Shown here: positions 3,460-28,020 of the stretch, piece by piece
Position numbering within the stretch: the first letter of the stretch is position 1
Layout: each line of letters opens with the position of its first letter
Origin: a virus
Virus record (IMG/VR): IMGVR_UViG_3300033142_001280
Location: 1 to 37,822 of that record
Length of the DNA stretch: 37,822 bases
Strand: one strand, 5' to 3'
The notes under the pieces: generated by a model
What the model was told of the DNA's origin: nothing
Database searches by the model: none
Seen by the model: the letters and a program-made list of their open reading frames with translations, nothing else
Translations under genes and position numbers: made by a program

Positions 3460-3954
3460 TTAATAGTCAGTGTTGGCTATTGCTTGAACTCTTTGTTTAG
3501 TAAGATTAAACTCATCACCAATCTCCTGCCATGTCCAGCCTTCACTCCTGAGTTGCAGAATACGCTTTTTAGCTTCTTTTAGTTCATCCTTACTCATTGG
3601 GTTCGGGTTTGGATTTGGACGCTTGTGTTTGTCAGCGTGCTTCTTCCAACTTCCTTTATATTTCTCTGGATTGTTTTCCTTCCAGTTTTTATAGCTTTTC
3701 TCGTTACCCTCTTTGTATTTTTCAGGATTTTCCTTTGCCCATTTTTTTTGATATTCTTTGTTCTTCTCATTTCGCTTTTCTCTTAATTCAGGATCATCCT
3801 GAATTTTCTGATTTCTTTCTTGAACTTTGTCTTTGTTATCGTTGTAATAATCAAGACTTTGTTCTTTCCAACAACTTTTACATTCGTTGCGGTCATTGTA
3901 GAATTGACTGTCGTCAAGTATTCTACCACATTTTGTACATTGTTTTGTAGGCAT
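3460..3954 (-). CDS. Zinc-ribbon / helix-turn-helix DNA-binding protein
   Basis: A likely DNA-binding regulator of 164 residues. Two CxxC pairs (C6/C9 and C25/C28) form a small zinc ribbon. Residues of about 35-120 are highly charged, with a repeated NPEKYK motif, and look like an extended linker. Residues 140-159 (WTWQEIGDEFNLTKQRVQAI) match the helix-turn-helix of sigma-factor region 4. The gene has a private promoter with perfect consensus and sits at the end of the minus-strand block. A regulator that reads promoter -35 elements is an attractive guess from the region-4-like fold, but an accessory protein of a mobile endonuclease is also possible. Confidence 0.7.
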   Translation of the reverse strand: MPTKQCTKCGRILDDSQFYNDRNECKSCWKEQSLDYYNDNKDKVQERNQKIQDDPELREKRNEKNKEYQKKWAKENPEKYKEGNEKSYKNWKENNPEKYKGSWKKHADKHKRPNPNPNPMSKDELKEAKKRILQLRSEGWTWQEIGDEFNLTKQRVQAIANTDY

Positions 3955-5754: not shown

Positions 5755-5835
5755 TTAAAAAGGCATATCTACACCGATATTGTCAATGACATTGTCAACA
5801 TCGGGTAGAGGTTCGCTCTCACTTACTTCACTCAT
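5755..5835 (-). CDS. SSB C-terminal acidic tail in the -1 frame
   Basis: A 26-residue frame beginning MSEVSESE and ending DNIGVDMPF. Acidic tails ending D-x-P-F are the hallmark of the protein-docking tip of single-strand DNA-binding proteins. The frame overlaps the SSB stop codon (ATGA) and is in the -1 frame relative to it. A run of ten A's (5847-5838) lies just upstream, so slippage by -1, or one extra A, would produce a 217-residue SSB with this tip (5755-6407). Alternatively the tail is a coupled micro-peptide, or the A-run has an indel. Confidence 0.6.
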   Translation of the reverse strand: MSEVSESEPLPDVDNVIDNIGVDMPF

Positions 5836-6407
5836 TCTTTTTTTTTTGCTTCTTCCTCGTCGTTTGAAGATTCAAATGGGTCGTTGCCTTCTTCTAGTGC
5901 TTTTAGGTTGATTTTCGATAGTTCTTCGTCAACCTTTGCTTGCAAGGTTTTCGTTAAATCTTCTGCATCATCTGACTGAAAAAAGTACTTGGTTTCAAGT
6001 TTTTGACCTTTTTTTGTAATTTGGATGTCGAATTTTGACCAGTCAGTTTTAATTTTTCCACTTGCGATTGAAAAAAGAAAATCTTGAATTGATTTTTGTG
6101 GAATTTCCCAAATTTTCAATTCTTCATTTTCTGGATCGGTTCTATCTAGAGCGACTACAGCCCAACTTAATTTTGGAGGCTTTCCTAATTCAGGTTTAGC
6201 ACTAGGCGGAACAGTGCCATCTCCTTTATCTTCATGTACAAATTTTTTTATTTTATCTTCTGCATCTTTTAAAAACTCTGCAAAATAGGTTACTACTTCA
6301 GTTTTTGGTGTTAGAACTCTTACTAAGTAAGAACCTTCGTCAGGAAATTTCAAATATTTTGAATTTTGTGCTGGTGTTTTGTAATTTTCTTGAAATGGAT
6401 TAGCCAT
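5832..6407 (-). CDS. Phage single-strand DNA-binding protein
   Basis: Predicted ssDNA-binding protein of 191 residues in the 0 frame. Recognisable blocks are YLKFPDEGSYLVRVLTPKTE near the N-terminus, then KLSWAVVALDR, LKIWEIPQKSIQDFL and FDIQITKKGQKLETKYF. Together they match the OB-fold SSB-like proteins of many siphoviruses. The 0-frame end is an acidic stretch finishing EEEAKKKE without the usual docking tip. The tip is encoded in the overlapping -1 frame beyond an A10 run. The gene is preceded at a distance by a strong minus-strand promoter (6791-6819), with one 49-residue gene between. Confidence 0.8.
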   Translation of the reverse strand: MANPFQENYKTPAQNSKYLKFPDEGSYLVRVLTPKTEVVTYFAEFLKDAEDKIKKFVHEDKGDGTVPPSAKPELGKPPKLSWAVVALDRTDPENEELKIWEIPQKSIQDFLFSIASGKIKTDWSKFDIQITKKGQKLETKYFFQSDDAEDLTKTLQAKVDEELSKINLKALEEGNDPFESSNDEEEAKKKE

Positions 6408-19103: not shown

Positions 19104-20375
19104 ATGTCATTCACTAGAGACGACTTCTTGAGCGGTCAATACGATGATAATTTCAAAATATTGTCTTTATATTCAGACAATAAATACACCAATTTAAACA
19201 CAGGCAAAGACTACGGATATTATGATAAAGTATGGCGGGGTGTACCTTTTCTTGCAACAGCTAAATCAATCTGGCTAGGTACGCTTGACGGGAACAAGAC
19301 GGAAGTAATAATCAACGAAAAAGATGACGCCAGTGACAGCACGAAAAAAGCCAATAACAGGCTTAAAAAGAAGACTAAAAAGTTCCTTTATTCTGATAAA
19401 CAATGGGCTAAAGTAGAGAGCGAAGGAATGGAAATGAAGATGAAGGAGGGTTGGTGTGCGATTCTTATTGATGAGGATGGAATGCCGTTAGTTCGTAGCA
19501 TGAGACGATATGCAGTCTATCATGACTGGGTCAATAATACGACTAAATACAGGTTGATAGTCGATGGTGCTGAGGTTGGTGAGTACTTGACTCACGGTGT
19601 AGAGATTTATGTAATGAAGGATTTTGGCTTTAGTTCTTCTATTATTCCACCCTCTCGATTAGATACTGTCTATTCATACTTAACCCTGCATAATAAAGGT
19701 TTAGAGACTAATATTTCATTTGCTGACAACGATTGGAATGGTACAACGCTGTTGAAAGTTCATGAAAGGTTTTTGACAGAAAAAGGTCTTGGTAAAGACA
19801 AAACTGGAAAAAATATTATTGAAAGAATAATGGATAATTGGAAATCAAAATTCAAAGGCACAAAAAACGCTGGTAAATTTACAGTTATTCCTGAGCTTGA
19901 TTCAGCGATAGAGTTGGGAAAGTCTAACAAAGACATGCAATATCTAGAGATGAATAAGCGAACTCTAGAGGTGCTTATCTCTGTATATAATCTAGCCCCT
20001 GCAGATTATGGACAAGGAGACGCACAAACTTGGTCTAATGTTGCAACATTCAACTATTCTCGACATGATAAGATAGGTCAGCATGAAGCACAAGCCTTTG
20101 ACGATTGTAGAAATAACTGGTTCTTGCCTTTGTTCAATATTCAAACAAATGAGAACTTCTATGTTCAATATCCTATCCCTGAAGATCCAAACGACATTGA
20201 GAAACAGAAACAAGCTAGAGAGGATTATCTCGTAGATGCACTCAGCCGAAACCAATATTTAGTTGCAACGGGAAGAGACCCAGAAGAAGAAGATTTTTAT
20301 TATTCAGAAGTTTTGCAAAAACAAAATCAAGGCTTTGGTCAAACTGTTGAAGCAGAGTTCAAAAAAAAAAACTGA
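19104..20375 (+). CDS. Portal protein
   Basis: The head portal/connector. Supporting features are the length of 423 residues and the order terL, portal, MuF, protease, capsid. Blocks typical of portals are VWRGVPFLATAKSIWLG near the N-terminus, DDWNGTTLLKVHERFL-like central segments, and the clip/wing region LEVLISVYNLAPADYGQGDA with SNVATFNYSRHD. The 0-frame ends EAEFKKKN at a run of 11 A's (20361-20371). Loss of one A or +1 slippage would continue into the MuF frame and give a 687-residue portal-MuF fusion (19104-21168). Confidence 0.85.
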   Translation: MSFTRDDFLSGQYDDNFKILSLYSDNKYTNLNTGKDYGYYDKVWRGVPFLATAKSIWLGTLDGNKTEVIINEKDDASDSTKKANNRLKKKTKKFLYSDKQWAKVESEGMEMKMKEGWCAILIDEDGMPLVRSMRRYAVYHDWVNNTTKYRLIVDGAEVGEYLTHGVEIYVMKDFGFSSSIIPPSRLDTVYSYLTLHNKGLETNISFADNDWNGTTLLKVHERFLTEKGLGKDKTGKNIIERIMDNWKSKFKGTKNAGKFTVIPELDSAIELGKSNKDMQYLEMNKRTLEVLISVYNLAPADYGQGDAQTWSNVATFNYSRHDKIGQHEAQAFDDCRNNWFLPLFNIQTNENFYVQYPIPEDPNDIEKQKQAREDYLVDALSRNQYLVATGRDPEEEDFYYSEVLQKQNQGFGQTVEAEFKKKN

Positions 20376-21168
20376 ATTTGCAAAACAAACTCTTAGTGAA
20401 AAAGCACTAAACTCAAAAAATCATAAAAAGTTTGAGAAAAAATGGATTGAGAAAATAACTAAGCAATTAAACGCATTTGTAAAGACTTTTAGTAAGTTGT
20501 CTAATGTTCCAGACCTAGACAAAATAAAACTGCCTAAAATCGAGACTTTTTACAGTTTTAAAGATTTGGAGAAAGATTTGGCGATTCAAGCCAAGCCTGG
20601 TGTTGATGTTTATAGAAAAGACCCGAGGATAAAGAATAAAAATGTTAAGAAATTCGCTGAGGATGTATTTGGTGAATATCCTGATTTTATTCAAGAAGCT
20701 ATAGAAAACAGAACTTTTTGGGTTCTTAAAGGGGCTAAAAGTGAATTAAAAGGCAATGTTGCCCTACTTCCTGACGATTGGAAAGGTTTTGAGGGTGTTG
20801 ATGAATCAACAACACAAGAAATAGTCAACATAATAGAAGCAAATTCAGAAAAAGGAGTCGATGAAATAGCTAGAATAATAAAGGAAAAAGTGCCAGAAAT
20901 AGCTAATTGGAGGGGTGAAAGGATAGCAAGGACGGAGACGACTAATGCAGTCATGGGGTCAAAAAGAGAATTATATAGGCAAGAAGTCGGAGCGGGTATG
21001 AAACATAAATGGAACACAGTAGGAGATGATAAAGTTGGAGAAGATCACAAAATGAATGATGGAAAAACAAGAAAAGATGGTGAAAGTTTTCCTTCAGGTG
21101 AGACGAGACCTGGTCAAAGACCATATTGTAGATGCGATGAGGAAGACATTATTCCAGATGATTATTGA
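20376..21168 (+). CDS. MuF-type minor head protein domain
   Basis: The head morphogenesis domain of the Mu gpF/SPP1 gp7 family. Diagnostic blocks are ERIARTETTNAVMGSKRE, then HKWNTVGDDKVGEDHKMNDG and the cysteine-containing end FPSGETRPGQRPYCRCDEED. The frame is open upstream into the portal gene, but it has no ATG or GTG start before about residue 190 of the domain. Coordinates here begin after the portal stop. The A11 run at 20361-20371 is the natural place for a frame change. It is therefore probably translated as a C-terminal extension of the portal. Confidence 0.8.
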
Positions 21169-27367: not shown

Positions 27368-27763
27368 ATGTCAGATAATAAAGAGGTTAAACAAGTATTA
27401 GGTCTAATTTTTAAAGCCTCACCACCTTTAAAACACAAAGACAAGAAGGTTCTGGACAAATTAGTAGCTAAGTCTTTTAGTCAAAAAGAAGGTCAAGAGG
27501 TTGAAAAAAAAGAAGGTAACATCATGGATAAAATCAACTATAAAGAAATACCTGATATCTTAGATGTTCAACTAGATGCTAAAGCAGAGCTTAACGAAGC
27601 CTTGATAAAACTTCACTGGAACACTCCTAAATACTGGGAAACAGCAGGACAACAAGACAATTACTGGTCTAAGAACAACATAGATGAGCTAGATTCTAGT
27701 GACTATGATTCATTCTTTAAACCAGTTCAAGAAATAAATCTTTTAAAATTAAAAAAAAATTAA
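27368..27763 (+). CDS. Tail assembly chaperone G
   Basis: The short product of the tail assembly chaperone pair, 131 residues. It is charged and helical and lies between tail tube and tape measure, as in lambda. It ends KLKKN at a run of nine A's (27751-27759). The 0-frame codons there present the classical slippery heptamer A AAA AAA. A -1 shift continues into the next frame and makes a 217-residue GT protein (27368-28020). Confidence 0.78.
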   Translation: MSDNKEVKQVLGLIFKASPPLKHKDKKVLDKLVAKSFSQKEGQEVEKKEGNIMDKINYKEIPDILDVQLDAKAELNEALIKLHWNTPKYWETAGQQDNYWSKNNIDELDSSDYDSFFKPVQEINLLKLKKN

Positions 27764-28020
27764 GCCAAAACGCTAAAAACTGGATTCAAAACAGTCTAGC
27801 AGGTGATTTATTCAAACAGTCAGCACAGAAAGCATTGGAAAAGATGACACAGGCTGAATATGATGATGTCAGTGATATTATTTTGACATTAGATAATTTG
27901 ACCTATACAGAATTACAAGAGATGGATTGGCAAGATGTGTCTTTTATCAAAGAAGTCAAAGGAGCTATTGACAAAGGTAATTCAATTAGGCAGGCTCAAA
28001 TGGATAAAAAGTCGAAATAA
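27764..28020 (+). CDS. Tail assembly chaperone T (GT frameshift extension)
   Basis: The -1 frame open from the slippery site to TAA 28018-28020. It starts KKKLSQNAKNWIQNSLAGD just after the shift and ends AQMDKKSK. An internal ATG at 27841 exists, but the frame is clearly open all the way back to the A-run, and the G-to-GT arrangement immediately before the tape measure is the well-known one for siphovirus tails. The T part is thought to recruit the tape measure and tube protein. Confidence 0.78.

Follow-up and report, generated by a model that had tools for sequence, protein, structure and literature searches.

The window analysed here is a 37,822-base IMG/VR virus record, whose terminase, portal, MuF, capsid and tape measure genes identify it as a tailed phage. 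On its minus strand lies an SSB gene whose 0 frame ends in GCA AAA AAA AAA GAA TGA, with the stop codon (5834-5832) directly after a run of ten A's (Table 1). Beyond the run, the -1 frame reads KKKRMSEVSESEPLPDVDNVIDNIGVDMPF before its stop, and the SSB read with a -1 shift, or equivalently with an A11 run, would end in EEEAKKKRMSEVSESEPLPDVDNVIDNIGVDMPF (stop at 5757-5755). The claim of an earlier note on this DNA that the SSB tip lies off frame behind a ten-A run was thus confirmed from the sequence. Readthrough of the 0-frame TGA was ruled out, as a TAA follows two codons further in the same frame.

Table 1. Positions of the SSB locus features and of the other frame transitions at long A runs in the window
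Feature	Position	Strand	Basis
SSB gene, 0-frame product of 191 aa ending EEEAKKKE	6407-5832	minus	T5 D11 / phrog_1607 family
A10 run on the sense strand (T10 on the plus strand), slippery; a -1 shift or one extra transcript A joins the tail	5847-5838	minus	sequence
ATGA overlap, tail-frame ATG (5835-5833) on the 0-frame TGA	5832-5835	minus	sequence
Acidic tail (R)MSEVSESEPLPDVDNVIDNIGVDMPF with DMPF tip, putative docking	5755-5837	minus	relatives' in-frame tails, codon usage, gene packing
Strong RNA hairpin within the tail-coding stretch, with its start about 27 nt downstream of the A run	5767-5810	minus	folding z-scores
Portal and MuF ORFs, one-base split at A11 (20361-20371)	19104-21168
-1 frame transition resembling a tail-chaperone site, at A9 (27751-27759) immediately upstream of the tape measure gene	27368-28020

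The closest named phage by terminase is Flavobacterium phage 11b, accompanied by other Bacteroidota phages, and Shine-Dalgarno-like motifs were found at none of the 59 gene starts, compared with 6% of random positions; the leaders preceding these starts are A-rich and free of such motifs. The terminase affinity and the missing motifs together make a bacteroidote host probable. The early genes of the window are almost entirely absent from its 80 terminase relatives, and a portal-based search gave no close relatives of the phage.

The SSB and its out-of-frame tail

The SSB ORF matched the phrog_1607 profile (E=7e-4, and 1.8e-5 in a second search) and aligned pairwise with gp377 of phage G (27% over 141 columns, E=2e-6), which links it to T5 D11, SPO1 gp32.4 and the SSBs of Flavobacterium and Cellulophaga phages. 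An AlphaFold model built with 18 relatives (pLDDT 79.7) was matched by Foldseek among viral models to D11 of Vibrio phage phi 3 and to annotated SSBs (E<=1e-3), and had no significant match to any solved structure in the PDB. Judging by these profile and model matches, the protein is a D11/gp32-like phage SSB of the T5 D11 / phrog_1607 family, with predicted ssDNA binding. The Pfam family of bacterial SSBs, PF00436, was not matched, which rules out a canonical bacterial-type SSB; the earlier naming of the gene as an SSB therefore holds, whereas its likening to the bacterial type does not.

Single-sequence searches for relatives of the SSB in viral contigs, genome contigs and phages returned nothing usable, and neither did searches by the exact tip or by neighbouring genes. 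Five relatives come from bacterial genome contigs (L161, L162, L164, L165 and L166, in Patescibacteria, cyanobacterial, Desulfobacteraceae and Rhodospirillales records); these are possibly prophages or phage contigs, and some of them carry long C-terminal extensions.

About 20 distinct SSB relatives were compared, all of them continuous through the junction and none with an A run there, which is the outcome that the earlier note had set down beforehand as refuting its proposal. In about half, the protein ends with a tip that is in frame (DLPF, KLPF, DPPF, DIPF, NIPF, DVPF or AIPF) and several have none, the tip being absent altogether from L148, L151, L156 and L161. The fused tail of the window SSB would extend 39 residues past the conserved DPF with a net acidity of +8; in the relatives compared, the tails reach up to 50 residues and a net acidity of up to +8. 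The tails vary too much in sequence for a convincing alignment, so what they have in common is position, length, charge and tip.

Several features of the window itself point in the same direction. Codon usage of the tail scores +8.4 bits in the -1 frame versus -30 and -44 in the other two frames, and this frame has no internal stop and keeps the PF tip. The next gene begins 89 nt from the 0-frame end and 12 nt from the end of the tail, in an operon so tightly packed that its gaps are mostly -47 to +8 nt. Off-frame stretches of 18-42 codons ending in a [DE]x0-2[ILVM]PF tip occur at just 6.6e-4 of window positions, which argues against a chance occurrence. Since its length and acidity resemble those of the relatives' tails and it fills the 89-nt gap in a packed operon, the out-of-frame tail is almost certainly the ordinary C-terminus of the SSB gene. 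Assignment of the tip to this gene, as originally proposed, is thus upheld by the relatives' in-frame tails, codon usage and gene packing.

An IMG/VR-wide pattern search (A7+, RRATGA and a tip within 38-68 nt) revealed no second off-frame SSB tip; its seven matches are in-frame proteins with a K run and tip or unrelated genes. Two IMG/VR contigs, L124 and L128, encode an apparently unrelated small phage protein with an in-frame A11 directly before an acidic tail ending TTEELPF.

Long A/T runs elsewhere in the window

Only two A/T runs in the window reach at least 10 bases, the A10 of the SSB gene and an A11 in the portal/MuF region, and both are located at one-base frame breaks. The portal ORF ends in VEAEFKKKN and is followed by the MuF ORF, for which TTG is the only start candidate, with no ATG or GTG nearby. 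In most of the terminase relatives in which both genes were identified, portal and MuF form a single ORF, whereas they are separate in 11b, phi10:1, phi18:1, L036 and L049; as a frame break comparable to that of the SSB gene, this case is therefore suggestive but not conclusive. Portal/MuF frame breaks were also observed in two other contigs, L047 (position 8697, at an A9, where a TTG start is possible) and L018 (around position 3700, at a T run).

The 16 window runs of 8-9 A/T include no unexplained frame break. The sole run of this length at a frame transition is the A9 preceding the tape measure gene, a place where -1 frameshifts of tail chaperones are found. A similar transition at an A9 precedes the tape measure gene of the isolate phage phi18:1, so that slippage at A9 is probably in use by such phages. 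The steep rise of breaks at runs of at least 10 A's is compatible both with miscounting and with transcriptional slippage. The presence of the second such run at a frame break points to a general homopolymer effect.

Candidate explanations for the frame break

We tentatively favour, at a little short of an even chance (a judgement rather than a computed value), a real A10 run with leaky slippage rescue, that is, a tolerated frame break rather than a purpose-built control of ratio. An ordinary acidic tail with a DMPF tip would have been put one base off frame by a change in the length of the poly-A run, which this reading takes to be truly A10 in the phage DNA. Transcriptional slippage at the run in the phage's host, leaving an extra A in some of the mRNAs, would bring the tail back into frame in part of the SSB made, possibly helped by a degree of -1 ribosomal slippage; tailed and tail-less SSB would then coexist, and the tailed form may dock partner proteins. 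In bacteria, slippage at A9 and longer runs is established (PMC1088944, PMC6260861), and selection against slippage appears at runs of nine A's in many species (PMC1088944); ten A's are long enough to slip, as had been supposed. Slippage genes are recognized by at least nine A's at a frame break together with continuous homologues, and the SSB gene shows both. The leaky break is supported by the coding character of the tail, by its likeness to the tails of relatives and by the probable use of slippage at A9 in such phages, and the window runs of 8-9 A/T that keep frame argue against a generally error-prone assembly. On the other side, the A run is missing from every SSB relative, the A11 run likewise splits an ORF that is single in many relatives, as a miscount would, and, given the four tipless relatives, SSB without a tail might be enough by itself.

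Some assemblies are known to miscount homopolymers. It is quite possible, although again in our uncomputed judgement below an even chance, that such a miscount in the metagenome assembly conceals an A11 run and a continuous gene for an ordinary tailed SSB. This would agree with the continuity of all SSB relatives and with the location of both runs of at least 10 at one-base breaks, whereas runs of 8-9 are not so located, save for the tail-chaperone-like A9. However, the behaviour of the 16 runs of 8-9 A/T indicates that the sequencing was not generally homopolymer-poor, the A11 before the PF tail is identical in L124 and L128, suggesting that such runs can be assembled reproducibly, and portal and MuF may be genuinely separate genes here, as they are in 11b, phi10:1 and phi18:1. 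The two causes, real runs with slippage and assembly miscounts, fit about equally well. A mixture of tailed and tail-less SSB is plausible under both, because slippage would be expected at a run of A10 and of A11 alike. It should be noted that frame breaks at runs of at least 10 A's in AT-rich phage contigs are not to be taken as gene ends without reads.

The earlier note had envisaged a programmed recoding site yielding SSB with and without the tip at a fixed ratio, which we consider distinctly unlikely. The site does offer a perfect slippery heptamer, A AAA AAA, in the SSB frame, an AGGA upstream of the run and an unusually strong downstream hairpin, with z-scores of -3.4 and -4.2 for stretches containing the whole hairpin and a rank of 17 among the 3776 windows of the genome; its identification as a terminator was rejected, as it is absent from the terminator-like sites listed. 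In -1 frameshifting, however, the stimulatory structure usually lies 5-9 nt downstream, and no structure was found at this distance from the A10, the hairpin being about 27 nt away. The AGGA seems unlikely to act in a phage with no Shine-Dalgarno use at its 59 starts, the slip site is conserved in none of the SSB homologues found, and the second run of at least 10 A's also sits at a break. The fixed-ratio device is therefore not supported, and no report of a recoded SSB was found in the papers covered. The broader proposal that slippage at the A10 sets a tip-plus/tip-minus ratio important for replication and recombination, with the portal/MuF A11 acting likewise, is improbable.

Very improbable is a real deletion that leaves only a tail-less SSB and a decaying remnant of its tail: the naturally tail-less relatives are in line with it, but the tail has remained free of stops, with gene-like codon usage and an intact PF tip, and the A10 run would be expected to slip anyway. 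Scarcely credible is a free-standing 26-aa peptide that would start at the ATG over the SSB stop and compete for docking. The ATGA overlap and an A-rich leader would suit it in a phage with A-rich, Shine-Dalgarno-free leaders, but in the relatives the tail is in frame on the same protein, and none of them showed a gene for a free tip.

Comparison with known slippage genes and SSBs

If the leaky frame break is real, a replication hub protein would have a slippage-dependent docking tail in a free phage rather than in an endosymbiont, allowing a direct test of whether mixed tailed and tail-less SSB subunits are tolerated or useful. By analogy, such a tail would be a further case of the poly-A frame breaks known from tssM and from dnaX/dnaG. 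For example, tssM1 of Citrobacter rodentium has an A11 upstream of an early stop, with about 20% slippage rescue and both forms needed (PMC4256274). As in the phage gene, a long A run is followed by a stop, and slippage adding extra A's restores a C-terminal part that is in frame in homologues. The two length variants shown there are predicted for the phage SSB, whereas transcripts with A10-A15, the two proteins and a requirement for their ratio have been shown only for tssM1 (PMC4256274), where the part lost is a domain and not a short putative docking tail.

In Blochmannia vafer, whose genome was sequenced with Illumina, eight genes carry poly-A/T frameshifts, dnaX and dnaG among them (PMC3017870). 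The dnaX and dnaG genes of Blochmannia and Buchnera resemble the SSB gene: in an AT-rich genome, a replication gene that is otherwise intact has one indel within a long A/T tract. These bacteria are endosymbionts whereas the window is a phage, and rescue is inferred in B. vafer as well (PMC3017870).

Among the SSBs, T5 D11, SPO1 gp32.4 and phage G gp377 belong to the same family as the window protein by profile, pairwise and structural comparison, but the members examined have neither an A run nor an out-of-frame tail, and the T5-like members end in ASDLD or SELD whereas the window tail ends in PF. The homologous SSBs of the Bacteroidota phages Flavobacterium FPSV-S1 and pippi8-1 and Cellulophaga phi18:1 and phi17:1 carry the tip (DLPF, KLPF or DPPF) in frame, unlike the window. 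In the SSB of phage HK620, the NDYPPF tip is also in frame, and these last six residues recruit Sak4 (PMC5928155); docking was shown there experimentally, whereas the window SSB is likened to it by its tip and its docking is putative.
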